Below, one piece after another: positions 1 to 31,525 of a DNA stretch of 35,373 nucleotides. Source of the stretch: Hyphomicrobiales bacterium (GTDB taxonomy: Bacteria > Pseudomonadota > Alphaproteobacteria > Rhizobiales > Xanthobacteraceae); the NCBI GenBank assembly GCA_003140315.1, contig PLJS01000135.1, positions 1 to 35,373 of the forward strand, in the 5' to 3' direction. Numbering within the stretch: the first letter of the stretch is position 1; each line of letters starts with the position of its first letter. The notes under the pieces are model-generated. The model was not told the DNA's origin and ran no database searches. It saw only the letters and a list, made by a program, of their open reading frames with translations. Both the position numbers and the translations under genes were made by a program.

Positions 1-295
1 AAACGAAAGGCTGCCGTGGAGAAATCCGGGGATTGCCCGGGCCGGGACCGATCGGGAAGCACCGCCCTTTGAGTCCGGCCGTGTCCAGTTTCGGCGTCGT
101 AGACCTTGTCCTGCTCCGCCCATTCCCGCGTGATGGTCGTCGGATCGCCCTGGCAATGGGATTTCTCGATCTCGGCCGCGGCACTCTTGCCGTGTTGCGC
201 GTGACCTTCCTCGCGCAGCTGATCATCTGGGTCCAGGCCGCCTGCAGCGCCGCAGGCGCCTTGTCCTGGTTCGCCCATTGCGACTGGCCGGCCAT
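1..295 (-). pseudogene. Possible decayed or partial short coding region at the left edge
   Basis: On the minus strand an ATG at 295 opens a frame that begins MAGQSQWANQDKAP and stays open to the window edge. From about position 222 leftwards a different frame looks more protein-like, reading REEGHAQHGKSAAAEIEKSH and then TREWAEQDKVYD. The first frame becomes Arg/Pro-rich junk over the same bases. This suggests one short hydrophilic protein broken by a frameshift near 222-230, or chance coding potential. No Shine-Dalgarno sequence is visible and I do not recognise a family. The plus-strand frame at 33-401 looks like a shadow. Confidence 0.22.
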
Positions 296-402
296 TTTGG
301 TCTTGAAGCTGCGAGCGTTTGACAGACAAATAAACAAAACCGCTATCGTGGGAATCAGATTTTGGGAGCGGCTCCACGAAATCGAAGCTCTTCAAAAGTA
401 AA

Positions 403-430
403 CGGGTGCGATCCTTGTTGATCGCACCCG
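403..430 (-). terminator. Perfect 11-bp hairpin downstream of the small peptide gene
   Basis: CGGGTGCGATC (403-413) pairs perfectly with GATCGCACCCG (420-430) across a 6-nt loop. Read on the minus strand it is followed by a T-rich run (GTTTACTTTTG). It lies 56 bases beyond the stop of the minus-strand gene at 486-692, so it most likely ends that transcript. Confidence 0.55.
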
Positions 431-442
431 GTCATCCGCTTC

Positions 443-466
443 GCGCTTGGCCGAAAGGCCGAGCGC
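443..466 (-). terminator. Second hairpin, 10-bp stem with a tetraloop
   Basis: GCGCTTGGCC (443-452) pairs with GGCCGAGCGC (457-466) with one wobble pair around a four-base loop. It sits between the stop of the 486-692 gene and the stronger hairpin at 403-430. It has no T tract of its own, so it may be an RNA-stabilising 3' structure rather than a terminator. Confidence 0.35.
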
Positions 467-485
467 TATTTGATCAAGCCGCTTA

Positions 486-692
486 TCACCAACGGCGAAA
501 GCGACGGAAACGACGCCAGCGACGCCACTGCGCCGAGGCCTGCGTGGCCGACGTCGTCATGGCGATCGTGGTGATGCCAGCAACGCCGAGAGCATACGTG
601 CCGATGTTGCTGACGAGAGCCGTGGCCACGAGGGCAACGACCGCCACGCCACGCACCAGAGCACTGATCATCGCGCGAATTGCAGTTGTCAT
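486..692 (-). CDS. Small exported or membrane peptide precursor with Arg/Trp/Phe tail
   Basis: This 68-residue frame starts at an ATG preceded by a good Shine-Dalgarno (AAAGGGAGAG, about 7 bases upstream). After MTTAIRAMISALVRG comes a long hydrophobic stretch (about residues 14-48). The chain then reads TQASA, a plausible signal-peptidase AxA site, and ends in a 14-residue aromatic-cationic tail, QWRRWRRFRRFRRW, followed by two stops in a row. Nothing acidic occurs in the tail. It could be a precursor that releases a short cationic peptide, or a small inner-membrane protein with a positively charged C-terminus. I do not recognise a named family. It stands alone, with hairpins downstream at 403-466. 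The start could also lie at 713, but that lacks comparable support. Confidence 0.55.
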   Translation of the reverse strand: MTTAIRAMISALVRGVAVVALVATALVSNIGTYALGVAGITTIAMTTSATQASAQWRRWRRFRRFRRW

Positions 693-19297: not shown

Positions 19298-22051
19298 ATG
19301 TGGCGCGAAAGGCTTGAAGCGTTCTGGGACGGCGGGGCCTCCCTCGTGCTCGGCTTCTTCGGCGTCAGCGACATCGCGGGCCTGATCGCGCCCTGGTACG
19401 AATTCGTCATCACGTCGTGCGCCAACAACGACTTCAAGAACGGCGTCACGTTGATCGATCTGGTCGACATCCGCACGTCAGCGTCTAAATTCTGGGTCAT
19501 CACACTTCCGCCTCGCCACGAGCATGTTTCCATCCGCGTGCGCGAGGGTGACGAGCTGCTGCTTCACCTTGTGCGCGAAAACGAGGTCGTGGGCGGCGAG
19601 TGGCGACTCCTGATGACCGAACTACCGCAGCCCGGGCGCGACGAATTTTTCAGGATCGCCGCAGTTGCGGCAGCGACGAAAGCGGATCGATTTGAAGGTG
19701 AGCAGATCAAACGCTCTGGAGATCGACTCGTCTGGGCGCTTCGCCAGAAACGCCAAGTCGAATATCTGGGCCGCGTACCGGCCGCAATGCGCATTTCGCC
19801 ATCGCGGCGCGTGTGGCCGTCGCGCGAGAGCAGCGTAACGATCGAGGCCGTCGAACCGGTCGCCGGCCGGCCCAACCGTATCGATGCCGCGGCATTCGCA
19901 CTACTGGACCTGTGGCAGCGCGAGGTGCCGCCGAAGATCGCCATCCGCATTCGCGTCTCCGGCACAGGCGACGACATCGAAGCGTCGTTGCAGCGCATGT
20001 GGGTGGTGCACGTCATGAACCAACGCCGTCACCTGCGCGACTGGATCAGAACGCAACGGCGCGCCGGCGATCCCATCATCAATCCGCTGACCTTCGAGGA
20101 CGTGCGGAACGCGCTCAACGATCCCGACGAGTTGCCGAATGCCGTCGACGCTCCTCACTGGGCCGCATTGTTCAACCTGTCGCATGCTTTGACGTTGCAC
20201 GGGGTGGTCGAGGAAGATGGTGCGACGATCCGGCCCCTTCCACGGACGGCGTCGCCCGCCGGGAACGTCGCGATCGAAATGGAGTTCTTTGGGGCGACGC
20301 TCGGGGACGATGTCGGCATCGTTAGCAACTGGGCGCGCGACGGCGACATCGTCGTATATCCCGAGGATCCGGGCGGCAGCCAAAAGGCGCGGCTGCTACG
20401 TGTCGGTATTGACGGGCTCGCCTCGGTCACCTTCGACGACAATGACCCCGTGCTGCATGAGATGCTAGCACGCGCCGCGGACCTCGAAGCCGATGTCGCA
20501 CACGAACCCGGCGAGATCCGGACTACGGAAGCGGACGCCCGGCGAAGCTCATTCATCACATTGTTGAAATCACAGGTTCGCAGTCCGGCGCTCATATCGT
20601 CCATCGCGCAGGCCCGCTGGGACGACCTTGCCCCAATTGCGGTCGCGGAGCTTGCCTGTATTGCCGCCGCCGGTGGCCCTGCCGCTGAGGAAGTACTGCA
20701 GCGGATCGGCGGTTACGCCGCGTTTCGACTTGATCCGGTGGTCGCGTCGATCGTCGCGCGTCGCCCCGATCTGATCTCCGATATTCAAAGCAATGTACTC
20801 GGCGAGCGCCACGACACGTCCGGCCATCTTGCGCGTCGCCTCGGCGTGCTGCGAGGAACACCCCAACTCGTCGCCCAGAACCTTGATCTGCCGCGACAGA
20901 TCCAAGGCTGGCGCGTCCTCACCGAGAGTGGCATGGCGCAGCAACTCACAGCGGCGCGGATCTCGCTCAGCGGGTCGAACGAGATTATGGCCGAGGCCGG
21001 CCCGATCGTGGCTATACTGAACGACGAGTCTCAAGTGGAGGAAAGTGCGGAGTCGCTTGAGGACGAGGCCTCCGAGTTGAAGGAGGACCAAGGCGCCGAC
21101 TCGGCGAATGCCCGCGACGCGATCGAGAAGGCGGAGGGGCTTCGTAGCTACCTGCGCAGCAGCCGTGAACTTGGAACCTGGATAGCCCTCGAGGAAGCGG
21201 CGAGACTCACCGACCTTATTCGCGCCGGAATCGCGCATCGTGACAGCTTTCTTAAGAACCGCGCCGAGTCTGCGCCGCAGGCGGCGGCAGTTGCGGACAA
21301 GCGCAGACCTCCGCAATTGCGCGCCGACATCGAGGCGCGGTTCGAGCAGATTCGCACAATGGTCCCCGCGCCCACGCAGCTTGCAACGCTTGAATCGGAA
21401 TATCGCGAGCACATCCTGCCGCGCAAGCCGAGCCGGCGCGTGCTCCGCGATTTCGAGGCACAGCTGATCCGACTCGAGAGCGAGCCGGGCGAGAACAAGC
21501 TGCTGGACGACTGCGTTCTAGAACTGGAGAATTGGGCCAACCTGCCCGACTTCCTGTCGACCATAGCGCCGCGGATGAGCCACGACGCAGATACGATCCA
21601 AAGCTCGCGCTCCACGCTGCTCACCAATTACGTTAACCGAACCTATCCGTCGCTACCGAAGCGCGACGGGCGCGGGACCTCGTTCGACAGCCATCGCGTC
21701 GCGCTCACGGATTCGATCTCTGACCGGCTCGGTCTCAAGGGGCGCAATCCCGTCGCGGAGGCGAATCTCACGAAGGACTTGCTGGCGTTCGCGGACATCC
21801 TGTTCTTCCACCAGAGCTTCAAGGCGATCCAGGGCGCGCTGCACGAGCTTCAGTCGCAGGCACCGAGCGCCCCGACATACCTCATCAAGGATGGCCTTGC
21901 GCACTGGCCGCGGGGCGCCGCGAAGAGCTGGGAACAAGCGGCGGCTACGTTGCGTACGTATCTGCCACAGCATGTCGAACAGTTTGAAGCGAAGGTCGCG
22001 CCGCCCGCCTATTCGGCAATGAATGCACGATCAAACCGGCCGATGCGATAG
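19298..22051 (+). CDS. Large soluble protein of unknown function, divergent from the operon
   Basis: I do not recognise this 917-residue protein. It starts MWRERLEAFWDGGASLVLGFFG at the first ATG after the shared intergenic region; no strong Shine-Dalgarno is seen. There is no signal peptide or TM helix beyond a mildly hydrophobic N-terminus. Residues 1-380 are mixed alpha/beta, with several short beta-like stretches. From about 400 onward the chain looks mostly helical, with an acidic Glu-rich segment near 580-605 (EESAESLEDEASELKEDQG) and many charged helices towards the C-terminus, ending Asn/Arg-rich. Divergent placement next to the GTPase gene, in an 86-bp shared promoter region, suggests it belongs to the same system, perhaps as a helical partner, effector or regulator. 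Confidence 0.72.
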   Translation: MWRERLEAFWDGGASLVLGFFGVSDIAGLIAPWYEFVITSCANNDFKNGVTLIDLVDIRTSASKFWVITLPPRHEHVSIRVREGDELLLHLVRENEVVGGEWRLLMTELPQPGRDEFFRIAAVAAATKADRFEGEQIKRSGDRLVWALRQKRQVEYLGRVPAAMRISPSRRVWPSRESSVTIEAVEPVAGRPNRIDAAAFALLDLWQREVPPKIAIRIRVSGTGDDIEASLQRMWVVHVMNQRRHLRDWIRTQRRAGDPIINPLTFEDVRNALNDPDELPNAVDAPHWAALFNLSHALTLHGVVEEDGATIRPLPRTASPAGNVAIEMEFFGATLGDDVGIVSNWARDGDIVVYPEDPGGSQKARLLRVGIDGLASVTFDDNDPVLHEMLARAADLEADVAHEPGEIRTTEADARRSSFITLLKSQVRSPALISSIAQARWDDLAPIAVAELACIAAAGGPAAEEVLQRIGGYAAFRLDPVVASIVARRPDLISDIQSNVLGERHDTSGHLARRLGVLRGTPQLVAQNLDLPRQIQGWRVLTESGMAQQLTAARISLSGSNEIMAEAGPIVAILNDESQVEESAESLEDEASELKEDQGADSANARDAIEKAEGLRSYLRSSRELGTWIALEEAARLTDLIRAGIAHRDSFLKNRAESAPQAAAVADKRRPPQLRADIEARFEQIRTMVPAPTQLATLESEYREHILPRKPSRRVLRDFEAQLIRLESEPGENKLLDDCVLELENWANLPDFLSTIAPRMSHDADTIQSSRSTLLTNYVNRTYPSLPKRDGRGTSFDSHRVALTDSISDRLGLKGRNPVAEANLTKDLLAFADILFFHQSFKAIQGALHELQSQAPSAPTYLIKDGLAHWPRGAAKSWEQAAATLRTYLPQHVEQFEAKVAPPAYSAMNARSNRPMR

Positions 22052-23895: not shown

Positions 23896-25083
23896 TCAAG
23901 ATTCGCTTGGCGAAACCGCCGGTGCTGATTTCGGCTTCGCGCTATCTTCACGCCAACTCAACACTTCATAAGCCTGAACGGGGCGACTAAAGCCCTTGAC
24001 ATTCAGTTCGCGCAGGGGCGCAGCCTGCACGTGCGGCTCGACTGTGTTGAATACGCCCCGCGCAATCACGATCTGGCCCGCCGTCGCCTCGCTGCACAGA
24101 CGGGCCGCCAGGTTCGTCACACGTCCTATCGCAGTATATTCGCGCCGCTTTTCGAAGCCGACTTGTCCGAGCGTTGCATAACCTGATGCGATCCCGACTC
24201 CGAAGCCGAGATCATGACCGCGGCTACCCCATGTCGTTGACAGCTCCGCAACGCGCGCACGCATGGCAATGGAAAGTCGGACAGCCCGCGCTGAGTGGTC
24301 TTCACAGGGGATTGGATCGTTGAACACGATCATGATCCCATCCCCGATGAATCGATCGAGCGTGCCCTCGTGCTCGAAGATCAACTCGCCCAAGTCATGG
24401 TGATACTCGCGCAACACCGCCATCACTTCTTCTGGCTCGGATGTGTCGGTGAAGGCGGTGAAGCCTCGTAGATCGCAAAATATAACCGTGATTTCTCGCC
24501 GGTGGCTCGCAAGTGCCGAGTCCGGGCTGTCAGACGATGCGATCATCTTCACTAACTGCGGCGCCAGGAAACGTTCCAGCCGCCTGATGCGCTCTATTTC
24601 CGCCACTTGCTCGGCTACGCGCTGCTCGAGCGTGCGATTCAAGTCTGCTAGCTGTTGGGATTGTTCCCTCAGCAGAGCAGTCTGCCCCTGTACCTCGTCG
24701 TGCAGTTGCTTGACCCGGAGCAGCGAACGCACGCGCGCCAGTAGCGCAGACTGCTCGAACGGCTTGGTCAGGTAGTCGTCGCCGCCGGCTTCGAGCCCGG
24801 CGATCATGTCGCGCGTGTCGGCCTTGGCCGTCACCAGAATGACGGGGAGAAAGTCATCGCCGGCAAGCTTCTTCATTTGCTTGAGGACAGCGATGCCGTC
24901 GAGCTTGGGCATCATGATGTCGAGGAGGACAAGGTCAGGGTCCTGCTCGCGCAAGCGTATCAGCGCCTCCTCGCCGTCCGCAGCGGTCACCACCTCGTAC
25001 CCGTGCGACTCGAGCCGCATGCGTAGGATATCGAGATTTGTCGGGATGTCGTCGACAGCAAGAATACGAGCAGGTGTTCGCAA
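23896..25083 (-). CDS. Response regulator with class III adenylate/guanylate cyclase domain
   Basis: The 395-residue protein has a receiver domain (about 5-122; acidic D11/D12, phospho-acceptor D55 in LLDIMMP, T85, K107 in TKPF), a coiled-coil connector (about 125-170) and a class III nucleotide cyclase domain (about 190-375). Both metal-binding aspartates are visible (VIFCDLRGFTAF and FIGDGIMIVF), as are the transition-state Asn and Arg (TNLAARL). The substrate-specifying lysine is Arg (LDRFIGD) and the usual Asp after the IG motif is Arg (AIGRVTNLA), so substrate choice or activity is uncertain. The start is a TTG at 25083, supported by a perfect AGGAGG 6 bases upstream. It is last in a three-gene operon after the kinase and single receiver. 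Confidence 0.92.
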   Translation of the reverse strand: MRTPARILAVDDIPTNLDILRMRLESHGYEVVTAADGEEALIRLREQDPDLVLLDIMMPKLDGIAVLKQMKKLAGDDFLPVILVTAKADTRDMIAGLEAGGDDYLTKPFEQSALLARVRSLLRVKQLHDEVQGQTALLREQSQQLADLNRTLEQRVAEQVAEIERIRRLERFLAPQLVKMIASSDSPDSALASHRREITVIFCDLRGFTAFTDTSEPEEVMAVLREYHHDLGELIFEHEGTLDRFIGDGIMIVFNDPIPCEDHSARAVRLSIAMRARVAELSTTWGSRGHDLGFGVGIASGYATLGQVGFEKRREYTAIGRVTNLAARLCSEATAGQIVIARGVFNTVEPHVQAAPLRELNVKGFSRPVQAYEVLSWREDSAKPKSAPAVSPSES

Positions 25084-25100: not shown

Positions 25101-25469
25101 CTAAACAGCAAGGTACTTGCGCACGACTGCCAGAATTTGCCGCGGGCTGAATGGTTTGGCGATGTAATCATCGCATCCCGCTTCGCGCGCCTTCGCTTCG
25201 TCGCCCGAAAGTGCATACGAGGTCACCGCGATGATCGGGATGTGCCGCGTGGCAGGATTCGCCTTGATCCGGCGTGTCGCCTCGTAACCGTCGATGATCG
25301 GTAGCTGAATGTCCATGAGGATGAGATCGGGGTTGACCTCAACGGCTGCGAATACTCCTTTCTCGCCATCAACCGCCTCGATCAGCTCGAAGCCGGCATT
25401 GGTGAGTAGGTCGCGCAGGATGCGCCGATTGTCCTCGGTATCCTCGATGACCAGAATGCGCTTGCTCAA
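25101..25469 (-). CDS. Single-domain response regulator, DivK/CheY-like
   Basis: The 122-residue protein is a bare receiver: E9/D10 acidic pocket, phospho-acceptor D53 (LILMDIQLP), T83 and K105 (AKPF). It has no output domain. The sequence (ILVIEDTEDNRRILRDLL, GYEATRRIKA) is close to DivK-type regulators in alphaproteobacteria. Its ATG overlaps the kinase stop by 4 bases (25466-25469), and the cyclase gene starts 17 bases after it. This suggests that all three form one phosphotransfer module, with this protein as an intermediate or competing phosphate acceptor. Confidence 0.93.
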   Translation of the reverse strand: MSKRILVIEDTEDNRRILRDLLTNAGFELIEAVDGEKGVFAAVEVNPDLILMDIQLPIIDGYEATRRIKANPATRHIPIIAVTSYALSGDEAKAREAGCDDYIAKPFSPRQILAVVRKYLAV

Positions 25470-27838
25470 GCTGGTTCTCTCTGCTCGTCCACGCGGATGG
25501 GTACGATGATAGTGAATGTCGAGCCTACACCGAGTTCTGATTCCAGGTCGATACGACCGCCGTGCATTTGGACGAGACGCCGAGAGATCGACAGCCCCAA
25601 TCCGGTACCGCCCTTGGCGCGGGTGCTGCTGCTGTCGACTTGCTGGAATTCTTCGAAGATCTTCTGGTGATCCGTTGGCGGAATTCCCGGTCCGGTATCT
25701 CGCACCGAGATGTTGAACTCGCCTTCGACGGCTTTCGCGCCGATGTCGACCGAGCCGGCGTCCGTGAATTTGATCGCATTGCTCACAAGATTGAGCAGCA
25801 CCTGAGTCAGGCGTCGCTCGTCACCACGCGCTATCGGCAGATCGGCAGCGACGGTGGTCGTCACTTTGATGCCCTTGGCTTCTGCAAGCGAGCCTGTCGC
25901 AGCGACAACCGATTGGACCACGCTCTCGACCGAATACTCGTCCAGCGCCAAAGTCAGTTGGCCAGCCTCGATCTTGGAAAGATCCAGCACATCGTTGATC
26001 AACCCGAGCAGATGCTTGCCGTTAGCCTGGATGCGCTCAAGAATCTCCGCAGCCTTTTCCGGCATCGCACCGTAAATGCCATCAGCAAGCAACTCGGAGT
26101 AGCCGAGCACGGCGTTCAGTGGGGTCCGCAACTCATGACTCATATTCGCGAAAAACTGCGACTTGTGGGCGCTGGCGGTGGCAAGCTCGCGTCCCTTCTG
26201 CTCGATCGTCTGGAACAAGCCGGCGTTGTGCATCGCCAGCACCGATTGATGCGCGAACGTCTGGATCAACTCGATCGTACGCAACGGAAATTCACCCTTG
26301 CTACGCCGTTGTAGCACGAGTGCACCGAATACCTCGTCCTGCGTAGCGAGCGGCACGATGAGCAAAGAATTGAACCCGGACGATAGCGTCAGCTCTTTGA
26401 GAGGATAGTTCGGCGATTTGGCAAGATCGGGGATAGAGATAGGTCCGCGAGTCCTGGCAGCACCACCCAACACGCTCGCATCGAAGGCAACGCGCGTCGC
26501 GTGCACTGCATCGACGAACGTTTGATCGAGTCCGTCCGGTTCGGCGAGTCTGAACGCGTTGGTAGCTGCATCGTAGCTGTATATGGCACCAGCTTCGGCC
26601 TGCGAAAGTTTCACTGCACGCGTCACAATTGTTCGCAGTACCGCGTTCAGATCCAGCGACGAGGCAAGCGCGCGCCCTATCTCCTCAAGCGCCTTCAACT
26701 CCCTGATTGACTGCGCCAGATCGCGCGTCCTCTCGGCGACCTTTTGTTCGAGCCGCGCATATGACCCCTGCAACTGGTCAGCCATGCGATTGAACTGTTC
26801 GGCCAATTCGCCAATCTCGTCACCGGTCCGAACGTCAATCCGGTAGCCAAAATTGCTTACCTCCAATTGCCGCGCGCCAACCTGCAGGGCGCGGATCGGA
26901 GTGACGAGCCTCCGCGCCAGCAGCATCCCGGCGAGCACTGAAAGCACGATGCCAAGACAGATCAGCCAGAGCGTGCGATATAGCAAAGTGTAAACGGGTT
27001 CGAGCGCGATGCTCAGCGGTTGCTGAAAGAAGACATACCAGTTGCGCTGCGCGACAACCGCCGCTCCTACCAGAACCGGCTGCTGGCTATCATCCTCGCC
27101 GGTTGACACACCTTCTCGGTTCTGGCCGAGCATAGCCGCGACTTGCGGCAGGGCGGAAAGGCTCGCGCCGAGACTATAGTTCGATTTGGAGGTGCTGAGA
27201 AGCCGGCCGCTCGGGTCGACAACGTACGCTTCGCTGTCGGCGCCGACTTGACTACGCTCGAAAAAATTCTCGAGGAACTTGAGACTGATTTCCGCAACGG
27301 TCGAGCCTGCATTCTGTCCAGAATGCGCGATCGCAACGGCAACATATGGCGCGCGGCCGTTGAAATATATCGGAGACCACCAGATCACTTGGCCCTTGGC
27401 GTCCTTGTAACGCGGGTCGATCGAGTAATCGATGCCACTCCGCACAACGACTTCCTGCCGCGTCGCCCGCAGCAGTTCCATCCCGGTGCTGTCGAGTTGA
27501 ATCAGTCGATCAATTGACGGCACTTGCTGCAGCAAAAGCTCATAGTCGGACCGTCGTTGTTCAATGGTTGTGGTGCTCGCGCGCGTTGCCGAGCCGATCT
27601 GTCGCTCGATTTCCGTCAGGGCCTGCTCGATGCGTCGCGCCGTAGCCTCCGCCTTTTCACTGTGTGCAATGACGACGCCATCGGTGGCGTCGCGATAGAC
27701 AACAAATGTTTCGAGGCTTGCGTTGACCGCAAGCACGAGGACGACGAGGCCAACGAAAGAGGCGACGAATTTGCGGAAATAGCCGCCCCCCCTAAGCCAT
27801 CCGCGCCTCGTTGCGTCGTGCGTCATGCATTCGTCCAT
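25466..27838 (-). CDS. Membrane-bound sensor histidine kinase with Cache-like, HAMP and GAF domains
   Basis: The 790-residue protein has TM1 at about 24-44, a periplasmic sensor region of about 240 residues with dCache-like spacing (VPSIDRLIQLDSTG, DPRYKDAKGQVIWWSPIY), TM2 at about 285-307, HAMP (about 308-360), a coiled coil, GAF (about 385-535), HisKA with H568 (NMSHELRTPLNAVLGYSE) and a HATPase domain (about 670-785; N box LNLVSNAIKF, G boxes DTGPGIP and GGTGLGLSI). It is not a hybrid: no receiver is attached, but two receivers are encoded directly downstream. Small-molecule sensing in the periplasm is likely; the ligand is unknown. The start at 27838 has weak support; an ATG four codons in (MTHDA) is possible. 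The 257-bp gap upstream (27839-28095) holds no gene. Confidence 0.92.
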   Translation of the reverse strand: MDECMTHDATRRGWLRGGGYFRKFVASFVGLVVLVLAVNASLETFVVYRDATDGVVIAHSEKAEATARRIEQALTEIERQIGSATRASTTTIEQRRSDYELLLQQVPSIDRLIQLDSTGMELLRATRQEVVVRSGIDYSIDPRYKDAKGQVIWWSPIYFNGRAPYVAVAIAHSGQNAGSTVAEISLKFLENFFERSQVGADSEAYVVDPSGRLLSTSKSNYSLGASLSALPQVAAMLGQNREGVSTGEDDSQQPVLVGAAVVAQRNWYVFFQQPLSIALEPVYTLLYRTLWLICLGIVLSVLAGMLLARRLVTPIRALQVGARQLEVSNFGYRIDVRTGDEIGELAEQFNRMADQLQGSYARLEQKVAERTRDLAQSIRELKALEEIGRALASSLDLNAVLRTIVTRAVKLSQAEAGAIYSYDAATNAFRLAEPDGLDQTFVDAVHATRVAFDASVLGGAARTRGPISIPDLAKSPNYPLKELTLSSGFNSLLIVPLATQDEVFGALVLQRRSKGEFPLRTIELIQTFAHQSVLAMHNAGLFQTIEQKGRELATASAHKSQFFANMSHELRTPLNAVLGYSELLADGIYGAMPEKAAEILERIQANGKHLLGLINDVLDLSKIEAGQLTLALDEYSVESVVQSVVAATGSLAEAKGIKVTTTVAADLPIARGDERRLTQVLLNLVSNAIKFTDAGSVDIGAKAVEGEFNISVRDTGPGIPPTDHQKIFEEFQQVDSSSTRAKGGTGLGLSISRRLVQMHGGRIDLESELGVGSTFTIIVPIRVDEQREPA

Positions 27839-28095: not shown

Positions 28096-29904
28096 TCAGG
28101 GCAGCTCGCGCACCAACCGAAACCCATTGGCGCTATACGGCACGTCGTAGTCGTATCTGAATCGAGAGGCCGCACCTACATACGTCGCGGCGCTGTCGAA
28201 CGCTCCGCCTCGCAGCACACGCAACTGACACTGCCCCGAAAGCCACGCGGAGCCGTCCGCGGGCGCGCCTTGAAAGCTTGGGTTCCAGCAATCTTCGACC
28301 CATTCGGCGACATTGCCAGACGTGTCGTACAGGCCAAAGCCATTTGGTTGGAAGGAGCCAACTGACTGGGTCCTCTGCGGCTGGCCAGTGCCGCAATCCT
28401 GGCAATTCGCGCGGCGCGTTCCGACGTCAGCGCCCCACCAGTAAGTGGTGCGTGTATTGGCGCGGGCAGCATATTCCCATTCTGCCTCGGTCGGGAGGCG
28501 ATACTTCTGTCCTGTCTTCTGTGACAGCCAAGCGGCGAATTCCTTCGCGTCAAGCCAGCTCACATTTATGACGGGATTTCTGTTTCGACCCCAACCGCGA
28601 TCACCAGGCCGGGACTTGCAGCCTTTCTCGTTCAGGCACGCGTCCCATTCGGCAAAAGTCACTTCATAGCGGCCGATCGCGAACGGCCTGCTGATCGTCA
28701 CATTATGCGACGGAGTCGCGTAGTCGATGTTGGCGCCCATAGTGAATGCGCCGCCCGCCAGAACCACCATCTCGGGGCAGTTGGAACAATCGCGAAAGAC
28801 TTGACCCGGTGTGAATTGTGCGGGCGCACGCGGTCTCGGGCCTGGCTGGGGATCGCTGTCCGTCTCGGTTTTAGCGACAGGCGGTCGCAGAGGGGGGCCT
28901 CCCTGTGTTGGCCCAGGCGCTGGAACCGGGGGTGGCACCGGATCTGGAGCAGGAGTTGGCGTCGGCGCACGCGCCGGGGTTGGAGTCGGCACTGGAGCCG
29001 GAGCTGGTGCTTGTGTCGATCGGATGGAAGGCTGCCTCGGCCGGAAATAGAACTCCTCGGGCAGCGAAGACGTTACCCAGGGCGTGACCTCATTGTTGGA
29101 CGCGCGAGACACACCGGTGCTCGTCCGGTTAAAGGCCGTTTCAGCCGATTGGTTGGGCACGCGCAACTCTTTGATCAGCTCGGTGACAAGAACGCTGTTC
29201 GGCATGGCGCCATCGCGATCAGGCGCGACGGTGCCCGGCGCGGCGGAAAAGAGCGCGAGCGTACCGTCGGTCGTGACGAGCGGCGCCAGTCCAGCGGGTG
29301 CGTCACGGAAGCGCTGTTCGTAGGGGTTACGCCGCGAGGCGTCCACGATCAGGATCGTCACCTTGGCGCCACGACGACGTGCTTCTGCAAGCAGGTCATC
29401 GAAGCTGATCCCGTCGCGTCGTACGTCAGCCTCGGACCATATCTGTGCATCGACCGGGATGAAGTAGCTGCGATGATCGGCTTGAATCGCAAATCCGCCG
29501 AAATAGAATAGCGCTTCGGTGCCGCTCTTGATCTTGGTCATGAACGCGTCAATCGCGCGCTTCAATTCGTTCTTGCCAACGTTCTCCTTAACCTCGATCT
29601 GGAAGTCGACGCGACGGACTTCATCGGCGAGCGTTCTCGTATCCCGGAGGATGGTCGTGAGTGGAGTGCTGGAGTCCGGGTAGCTGGAGTTGCCGATGAA
29701 CAGTGCAACGCGATCGCCTTGTTGGCCGGTCGCTCGCTGGGGAAGCAAAACTGCAAGAAAAGCCAGGACAAACAAAAGGGGTAGCGTGATGCTGCGCCCT
29801 GAATGTTGACAGGCAAGCCGGTGGAGGAAGTCTGGCGGAAAGCCCTTCAGACCGCGAAAAGCACGATCGGTCGCCTTGTTGCTTAGGCAATCGGCTTCAG
29901 GCAC
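28096..29904 (-). CDS. Membrane-anchored caspase-like (C14) pseudo-protease fused to SUMF1/formylglycine-type domain
   Basis: The 602-residue protein starts at a GTG with a G-rich site just upstream. It has a TM or signal segment (39-55), a caspase-like domain (about 64-280), a Pro/Ala/Thr-rich linker (about 290-365) and a SUMF1/FGE-sulfatase domain (about 375-600; GGAFTMG, GRYEVTFAEWDAC, RLPTEAEWEYAAR, GNVAEWVEDC, RVLRGGAF). The caspase part aligns well with bacterial C14 proteins, but the catalytic His position (usually YxGHG) is F138 (YFGGFA), and the catalytic Cys (usually DACR.NP) is S190 (VDASRRNPY). It is therefore probably proteolytically dead. Many SUMF1 domains in such fusions act in binding rather than catalysis. 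It is convergent with nothing and lies upstream of the kinase operon on the same strand. Confidence 0.9.
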   Translation of the reverse strand: MPEADCLSNKATDRAFRGLKGFPPDFLHRLACQHSGRSITLPLLFVLAFLAVLLPQRATGQQGDRVALFIGNSSYPDSSTPLTTILRDTRTLADEVRRVDFQIEVKENVGKNELKRAIDAFMTKIKSGTEALFYFGGFAIQADHRSYFIPVDAQIWSEADVRRDGISFDDLLAEARRRGAKVTILIVDASRRNPYEQRFRDAPAGLAPLVTTDGTLALFSAAPGTVAPDRDGAMPNSVLVTELIKELRVPNQSAETAFNRTSTGVSRASNNEVTPWVTSSLPEEFYFRPRQPSIRSTQAPAPAPVPTPTPARAPTPTPAPDPVPPPVPAPGPTQGGPPLRPPVAKTETDSDPQPGPRPRAPAQFTPGQVFRDCSNCPEMVVLAGGAFTMGANIDYATPSHNVTISRPFAIGRYEVTFAEWDACLNEKGCKSRPGDRGWGRNRNPVINVSWLDAKEFAAWLSQKTGQKYRLPTEAEWEYAARANTRTTYWWGADVGTRRANCQDCGTGQPQRTQSVGSFQPNGFGLYDTSGNVAEWVEDCWNPSFQGAPADGSAWLSGQCQLRVLRGGAFDSAATYVGAASRFRYDYDVPYSANGFRLVRELP

Positions 29905-30191: not shown

Positions 30192-30295
30192 TATCTTGGG
30201 TTGGTGTACACCTGCGAACCTGCGTAGCTGCCATCCAGTCAGCCACCGGGATGGTCAGACAATCAGCGCGAGAAAAACCCCGAAAGGGTGGATTG

Positions 30296-31525
30296 ATGCA
30301 TGTGCTCAAGAAGTTCGCGGCCGACTGCAAGAACGCGAGGCGCGTGAGGAACGCGCTGCTGCCGTGTCTTCTCCTGGCGGCTGTAATGGGCAGCGGGGCT
30401 GTCGCGGAGCGGCGCGGCGAACGGCTGACCACATCGGCACCGGGCGCCGAAGTTTATTTCATCGACCTCAAGGACGGCGACACGATTCCCGAAAAAGTCA
30501 CCCTCCACTTCGGCCTGCGCAACATGGGCGTTGCGCCCGCTGGATCAGACCGCCCGAATTCCGGACATCATCATTTAATCATTGACGACAACCTGCCACC
30601 GCTCAACGGGCCGATCCCGAACGATCCTCGTCACCTTCATTTTGGTAGCGGCCAGACCGAAGCGGAGATCATGCTGTCGCCGGGTGAGCACACACTGCAG
30701 TTGCTCTTTGCGGACAAATTTCACGTGCCGCACACGCCACCGGTCATGTCACAGCGAATTCGTGTGATAGTTGCACAGAAAGGCGGGCCCACGGCGTCTC
30801 CCCCCGGGGCCGAAGTCTACTTCACCGAACTCAAGGACGATGCAACAGTTGGCAGCGAACTCACGATCCATTTCGGCCTGAAGAACATGGGTGTTGCGCC
30901 CGCCGGTGCAGATCGTCCGAATTCGGGTCACCATCACCTGCTGATCGACACGGAACTACCGCCGTTGGACCAGCCCATTCCGAACGATCCGCATCATCTT
31001 CATTTCGGAGGTGGCCAGACTCAGGAGACGGTAACGCTATCGCCTGGTGACCACACGCTTCAATTATTATTCGCTGACAAGGACCATATACCTCACAGTC
31101 CACCGGTTATGTCGAAGCGCATCACCGTGCACGTCGCTGTGCCGGCGGAGCGCATGTCGTCCTCTCCGGGGGCCAAGGCCTACTTCGTGGGTTTGCGAGA
31201 CGGGTCCGTTGTGCCACAAAACGTCACGATCCATTTTGGATTGGTCAACATGGGGGTTGCTCCCGCCGGCATCGAAAAGCCCAATACTGGCCACCACCAT
31301 CTCTTGATCGACAGCGACCTCCCGGCACTTGATCAGCCAATTCCAAATGACCCGAAGCATCTTCATTTCGGAGCAGGTCAGACTGAGGCGGACGTGATGC
31401 TGCCGCTCGGCAAACACAAGATCCAGTTGCTGCTCGGTGACCACCGCCATGTTCCGCATGATCCCCCGGTCATGTCCGAGCCGATTACGATCAACGTGGT
31501 GAAAGACAGCGAAGTCAAGAAATAG
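30296..31525 (+). CDS. Secreted protein of three tandem DUF4399 domains
   Basis: The ATG at 30296 follows AAGGGTGG; 409 residues result. A signal peptide is likely (LPCLLLAAVMGSGAVAE, about 20-38). Three copies of DUF4399 follow, each with the pattern EVYF.LKD, HFGL.NMGVAPAG, NSGHHHLLID, HLHFG.GQTE, LSPGEHTLQLL and H.PH.PPVMS. The His clusters (GHHH, HLHFG, HVPH) could bind a metal, but that is inference; the family has no established function. Most DUF4399 proteins carry one copy. The first copy keeps all the motifs, and the third has slight changes (LPLGKHKIQLL). The gene is monocistronic. Confidence 0.9.
   Translation: MHVLKKFAADCKNARRVRNALLPCLLLAAVMGSGAVAERRGERLTTSAPGAEVYFIDLKDGDTIPEKVTLHFGLRNMGVAPAGSDRPNSGHHHLIIDDNLPPLNGPIPNDPRHLHFGSGQTEAEIMLSPGEHTLQLLFADKFHVPHTPPVMSQRIRVIVAQKGGPTASPPGAEVYFTELKDDATVGSELTIHFGLKNMGVAPAGADRPNSGHHHLLIDTELPPLDQPIPNDPHHLHFGGGQTQETVTLSPGDHTLQLLFADKDHIPHSPPVMSKRITVHVAVPAERMSSSPGAKAYFVGLRDGSVVPQNVTIHFGLVNMGVAPAGIEKPNTGHHHLLIDSDLPALDQPIPNDPKHLHFGAGQTEADVMLPLGKHKIQLLLGDHRHVPHDPPVMSEPITINVVKDSEVKK
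30440..31525 (+). repeat. Three direct repeats, exact 363-bp period
   Basis: Homologous codons start at 30449 (GAA GTT TAT), 30812 (GAA GTC TAC) and 31175 (AAG GCC TAC), exactly 363 bp (121 codons) apart. Protein motifs are strongly conserved between copies, while many third positions differ, so the duplications are old and kept under selection. Confidence 0.88.

Follow-up and report, generated by a model that had tools for sequence, protein, structure and literature searches.

What does a caspase-like domain do once both residues of its catalytic dyad have been replaced, and what does its fusion to a SUMF1 domain say about that role? The question is raised by a gene in a contig of a Hyphomicrobiales bacterium (PLJS01000135.1), all 35,373 nucleotides of which were analysed and are called the window here. 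The coordinates given for the gene in the initial annotation, 28096..29904, are correct; the strand was absent there, and the gene lies on the minus strand, the plus strand having stops in the corresponding frame. The product is a 602-aa protein with a GTG start, in which Pfam places a Peptidase_C14 match (PF00656, residues 65-286, E 8.2e-25), then a linker, and then an FGE-sulfatase/SUMF1 match (residues 376-599, E 1.2e-53). Combined with alignments and an AF2 model, these matches delimit a p20 domain (29041..29730, minus strand, about residues 59-288), a Pro-rich linker that is present as originally described, and a PvdO-like SUMF1 domain (28102..28779, minus strand, residues 376-601). The periplasmic location that had been claimed stands as a prediction: the protein is probably exported, given a hydrophobic segment near residues 36-54 and eight Cys residues that are invariant in the SUMF1 domains of 11 orthologues. 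The start codon of the window protein is uncertain, because several orthologues have Met where the window reads Ile40. In the region concerned (29780-29904, minus strand) the orthologues L009, L017, L010 and L031 place this Met just before the hydrophobic segment, and the Ile40 codon leaves the window either with the upstream GTG, and hence a long N-terminal region, or with an unusual start.

The reading of F138 as the replacement of the catalytic His and of S190 as the replacement of the catalytic Cys is borne out by alignment with bacterial relatives and with MALT1. The two positions can be equated with the His and Cys sites because the motifs of the p20 profile align with those of solved MALT1, YFxG[YF] over YYAGHG and DAxRR over DMCRK. 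The flanking motifs IPVDA (149-153), RRNPY (191-195) and GLAPL (205-209) are retained as reported. Residues 56-290 contain one His (H144) and no Cys, so that no alternative dyad is possible, and a shifted His/Cys pair was ruled out on this basis. In the AF2 model, built for residues 57-602 from an 88-row alignment (pLDDT 88.5, pTM 0.62), the p20 part superposes on MALT1 over 216 residues (Z 27.4, rmsd 2.7). Since the protein combines a caspase-homologous p20/C14 domain with replacement of both the catalytic His and the catalytic Cys, it is filed on its sequence as a pseudo-orthocaspase of new architecture and setting.

Intact orthologues, which would have indicated a recent mutation, are not seen among the close relatives: both residues are missing from each of the 11 nearest p20 relatives (36-63% identity), and intact p20 relatives start at 35% identity to the window. 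We placed the loss on a tree of 86 p20 domains from 162 loci (length 190 or more, duplicates removed, the two dyad columns omitted). The tree is a sample, as the p20 matches found in 181 of 296 genomes contributed only their best 30 loci. It comprises 45 HC domains, one HA domain and 40 domains with neither residue. The window falls with 36 relatives into a single dyadless group of 37 (SH-aLRT 97), and the HA domain of L158 attaches to this group (support 91). This HA domain belongs to a C14-SUMF1 gene (L158:1566-3359, minus strand) that keeps the His, has Ala for Cys, lies near DUF4399 and an intact caspase, and is a possible intermediate. Inside the group of 37 the residue pairs are FS (17), YA (12), YS (6), FA (1) and IA (1), with at least seven changes at the His site (Tyr/Phe/Ile) and at least four at the Cys site (Ser/Ala), and 36 of the 37 domains are devoid of Cys altogether. 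A single clade of FS rows is rejected (p-AU 7.9e-54), and the FS pair of the window therefore most likely arose separately from that of the TPR-type proteins. A single origin of the pseudo-C14-SUMF1 fusion is weakly rejected (11 rows, p-AU 0.033), a result that the long branches L013, L014 and L015 may pull. More distant p20 matches in L005/L092/L093 (Y-T or Y-A) and in L090/L099 (F-C) are also without a full dyad, so the dyad was lost more than once in the superfamily.

Judged from these alignments, the loss in the window lineage is old and conserved, and the suggestion of a conserved pseudo-protease fold holds, the caspase fold being present in the model and the loss clade-wide. Recent decay of an active protease can be dismissed almost completely; the nearest tree row does have IA where the window has FS, but the 11 dyadless nearest relatives, the tree and dN/dS values of 0.04-0.07 in three pairs of relatives led us to reject recent mutation as the cause. 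Nor is it at all probable that p20 has remained an enzyme in which Ser190 serves as the nucleophile: Ser occupies the Cys site in 23 of the 37 clade domains, but Ala occupies it in 14, and His is found at the partner site in none.

Selection on the domain was estimated from pairs of relatives, with the window itself outside them. The Nei-Gojobori dN/dS of p20 is 0.037 for L011/L012, 0.052 for L014/L015 and 0.074 for L009/L017, the last pair being near saturation (dS 1.66); the values for SUMF1 are 0.137 (L011/L012) and 0.052 (L014/L015). The substrate-pocket residues of the metacaspase TbMCA2 include Asp95 and Asp211 according to the available part of PMC4357240, and the positions that we map to them are D88, kept in 36 of the 37 domains of the group, and D188, kept in all. 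Four further residues, E196, F199, A254 and S279, occur in 37/37 domains of the group versus 0, 1, 1 and 5, respectively, of the 45 intact ones. By these sequence features p20 resembles a binding domain that has been retained and remodelled rather than a product of decay, and the binding half of the binding or decoy role put forward at the outset is thus supported by purifying selection and by the retained pocket acids.

The surroundings of the gene point to signalling. A divergent DUF4399 gene (30251..31525, plus strand), the only one found in this genome, encodes three repeats with invariant His clusters; a sequence search found no solved relatives at E<=1, and the only structures that match its model are generic FnIII/Ig-like sandwiches (best Z 8.8, rmsd 9.5). 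Three genes follow downstream on the same minus strand as the pseudo-caspase-SUMF1 gene: a histidine kinase (25466..27838) with HAMP, GAF, HisKA and HATPase domains, two hydrophobic segments and a weak dCache_1 match below the cut-off; a stand-alone response regulator receiver (25101..25469), assigned from similarity and from its conserved place, since similar frames adjoin the kinase in L016, L017, L047, L011 and L012; and a response regulator fused to a class III nucleotide cyclase (23896..25083). A promoter and terminator scan gave nothing decisive. In L009 (7082-8059), L016 (857-1804) and L017 (2697-3683) an HlyD/CusB-type adaptor gene separates the pseudo-caspase-SUMF1 gene from the kinase; the window has only about 260 bases at this place.

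To place these neighbours in a wider frame, linkage was counted over loci L009-L088 and five fetched regions, with the window excluded and L152, L153 and L156 omitted as contigs of L026, L025 and L028; copies of DUF4399 were searched for with the repeats of the DUF4399 protein of the window at E<=1e-10, a threshold at which divergent copies may be missed. DUF4399 lies within 3.5 kb of all 11 broken-dyad C14-SUMF1 fusions (ten without both residues, and the HA fusion of L158), versus none of the 15 intact fusion frames at 11 loci (0/13 when at least 3 kb of upstream sequence is present) and 30 of 79 unfused SUMF1 frames, where L016, cut by the contig start, is scored as unfused without DUF4399. 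This contrast may be partly taxonomic, because the loci share ancestry and many of the intact fusions belong to Beta- and Gammaproteobacteria. For the same reason the p values and Fisher values given below, which ignore shared ancestry, overstate independence. The downstream histidine kinase is shared by the window and L009, L016, L017, L047, L011 and L012, and five of these six kinase-bearing relatives also have the regulator-cyclase, the contig of L009 ending in a receiver-like frame. Where at least 3.5 kb of downstream sequence is available, the kinase accompanies 5/9 broken-dyad fusions versus 0/28 unfused SUMF1-DUF4399 genes (p 0.0003, relatedness ignored). It is absent at L010, L013, L015 and L031, each with 3.5 kb or more downstream, and kinase output is therefore not universal. 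An apparent DUF4399-caspase gene fusion among long open frames of Rhodoplanes was discarded, because its N-terminal part comes from reading through a separate DUF4399 gene in the wrong frame. Relatives retain the dead form under strong selection next to one and the same uncharacterised gene, a pattern suggesting that the dead caspase domain recognises or holds something without cutting it.

What is held could be a substrate or a partner of an active protease. The dead p20 domain would then be a decoy or inhibitor that binds the substrates of an active orthocaspase or pairs with it, as c-FLIP acts on caspase-8. The retained pocket acids are compatible with such a role, and the intact HC caspases that lie near the broken-dyad fusions of L013, L031 and L158 leave room for a regulator of a protease; an intact caspase is also found within 4.5 kb of 24 of the 30 unfused DUF4399-linked SUMF1 genes, and two intact C14 genes elsewhere in the window's own genome may allow action in trans. 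The window contig itself, however, carries no intact caspase, and the broken-dyad fusions have one within 4.5 kb in only 3/11 cases. With at least 3 kb of upstream sequence the proportions are 3/7 versus 24/29 for the unfused genes (p 0.05, relatedness ignored), or 3/10 versus 24/29 once the window, L149 and L150 are added (p 0.004, relatedness ignored). We consider this explanation rather unlikely, and the proposed decoy for a neighbouring caspase gains little from the counts. The stronger notion that an intact caspase and a dead fusion are mutually exclusive (8/11 without) was weakened on recount, because four of the eight negative loci (L011, L012, L017 and L047) have a flank too short to show an intact caspase neighbour.

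A cyclase recurs with the SUMF1-DUF4399 pair. In a survey of 296 genomes of the family, 58 contained DUF4399, and all 65 places, window included, were examined. SUMF1 or pseudo-p20 was found near DUF4399 at 55 of them (15/17 in the first set, in which two places show only p20 before the contig end and the SUMF1 of L158 is 2.9 kb away, and 40/48 in the second); SUMF1 was not seen at 10/65, and two of the eight such places in the second set are near contig ends (L192, L196). In the second set, 37 of the 40 SUMF1 frames beside DUF4399 share homology with the cyclase region of L163 in their N-terminal part, which a single hydrophobic segment separates from SUMF1; the three exceptions are L179, whose frame is short, L199, which the contig start truncates, and L205, which gave no match. 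When four of the SUMF1 proteins were scanned with Pfam, a cyclase domain was identified in three (L163, L187 and L182) and not in L205. The cyclase is fused to SUMF1 in these proteins and takes the form of a regulator-cyclase in the window, and a signalling output is supported chiefly by this recurrence.

The reading that we prefer, although its probability falls slightly short of even, is that the protein serves, without cutting, as the recognition part of a periplasmic sensor made of SUMF1 and DUF4399, and that this sensor feeds cyclic-nucleotide signalling. In this scheme p20 would bind a peptide, possibly a basic one, or a protein partner without cleaving it; SUMF1 and the His-rich, perhaps metal-binding DUF4399 protein would act together with p20; and the kinase would read the binding event and pass the signal through the regulators to the cyclase. 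Both the function and the formation of a complex are inferred from sequence and gene order. A broader and more tentative possibility is that SUMF1-DUF4399 constitutes an undescribed periplasmic sensor core with swappable partners. The partner would be an active orthocaspase in some loci, a cyclase tethered to the membrane in others and a dead caspase in still others, the last being connected over part of its range to a relay of kinase, regulator and cyclase. If these proposals are true, the dead caspase has evolved into a domain that reads signals and bears a conserved signature of its own, and a single sensor accepts caspase, cyclase and dead caspase as alternative plug-ins.

The SUMF1 domain allows for an enzymatic explanation. 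Its nearest solved relative by both fold and sequence is PvdO (5hha), on which the SUMF1 part of the model superposes over 238 residues (Z 35.7, rmsd 1.6, 43% identity in the structural alignment). The last oxidation of dihydropyoverdine requires PvdO, yet the purified protein was inactive and without a detectable cofactor, as stated in the accessible portion of PMC6206403. By analogy, the SUMF1 domain and DUF4399 could act together in an oxidation or a metal-dependent maturation in the periplasm, the dead p20 domain only holding the substrate, and the invariant His clusters of DUF4399 would suit such chemistry. Against this, PvdO is a stand-alone protein encoded among siderophore genes, whereas no siderophore gene family occurs among the ten window frames scanned, the window domain scores 200.5 bits in the PvdO equivalog model NF051459 (NCBIfam) with its cut-off of 500, and the kinase and cyclase genes point to signalling; we regard the enzymatic explanation as unlikely. 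The domain also departs from formylglycine-generating enzyme, whose two Cys (Cys336/Cys341 in the human protein, known from C336S and C341S structure entries) would be expected about 30-35 residues before the C-terminus, as placed by chain range (86..370 on model 318..546) rather than by residue-level alignment. No Cys follows residue 559, and this pair therefore cannot be present. Its lack is no proof of missing function, since PvdO has a role despite its undetected cofactor.

Several components of this picture are already published. FS pseudo-orthocaspases of Rhizobiales were described by Klemencic et al. 2019 (PMC6426788), which in the part available assigns 561 of 582 alphaproteobacterial pseudo-orthocaspases to this order and reports TPR repeats consistently in the FS proteins. 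The FS/YS/YA proteins of that study belong to the same p20 family and have the same substitutions. In our tree the window shares one clade with other dyadless domains, and the three of these unlinked to SUMF1 that we scanned (L118, L119 and L126) contain TPR repeats. In contrast, Pfam detects no TPR repeats in the 602-aa protein, which has FGE-sulfatase C-terminal to p20 instead; the window and L031 thus combine the FS pair with SUMF1. The two-domain architecture itself is known from C14-FGE-sulfatase 'metacaspases' (33 of 671 sequences, one of them, from Trichodesmium, dyad-negative; Asplund-Samuelsson et al. 2012, PMC3501461). The accessible text of that paper mentions no link to DUF4399, kinase or cyclase, and the intact fusions in our loci have no DUF4399 nearby. 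SyOC of Synechocystis is a pseudo-orthocaspase with a phenotype, its deletion raising oxidative-stress tolerance, and a SUMF1 or DUF4399 setting goes unmentioned in the excerpt at hand (PMC7889975).

A further parallel is found in the conflict systems of Kaur et al. 2020 (PMC7159879), where, in the portion available, about 70% of the effector-position caspase domains of one system are inactive, FGS is C-terminal, and the caspase of a second system is replaced by a cNMP cyclase. The window protein might accordingly be seen as a component of a conflict or defence system in which an inactive caspase and FGS (SUMF1) are exchanged effector parts, and caspase and cyclase do alternate before SUMF1 in the present loci too. 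This interpretation is improbable: the ten window frames scanned include no MoxR-vWA, EACC1, STAND or reverse transcriptase partner (the caspase_w_EACC1 model reaches 22.5 bits versus a cut-off of 140), DUF4399 is present, the protein is probably exported, and its p20 domain evolves slowly and is conserved. In the DUF4399 literature, one of the passages available reports a predicted DUF4399-DoxX complex and another lists a protein name, neither with SUMF1 or caspases. In the literature searched, which leaves most subscription journals outside, we found no link of DUF4399 with pseudo-orthocaspases, C14-FGE fusions or caspase/FGS/cyclase exchange. While dyad loss, Rhizobiales FS pairs, C14-FGE fusions and the exchange of inactive caspase, FGS and cyclase are thus on record, the DUF4399/kinase/cyclase setting looks new.

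Pseudo-caspases are numerous in Rhizobiales, and a steady DUF4399 partner together with a recurrent cyclase provides a concrete handle on their role, by which the binding partner, the ligand and the second-messenger readout become open to testing. A natural comparison is also at hand, since this SUMF1-DUF4399 pair is linked to intact caspase domains in some loci and to dead ones in others. Some minor observations concern the same families and the rest of the window. The window carries a 917-aa open frame (19298-22051, plus strand) for which neither Pfam nor NCBIfam gave a match at E<=0.001, and in L014 (1521-1985) and L015 (4113-4577) a frame resembling the PG-binding protein of the window lies beside DUF4399. 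The DUF4399 protein of L160 (4861-5859) has a C-terminal extension that resembles, by eye, a peptidoglycan-binding repeat. Three adjacent intact C14-SUMF1 genes form runs in L069 (3925-9342) and L088 (3477-9672). Finally, the genome of the window encodes a second dyadless p20 domain of the group (L162 / G000:C138), with the pair Y-A and fused to PDZ and Sel1.
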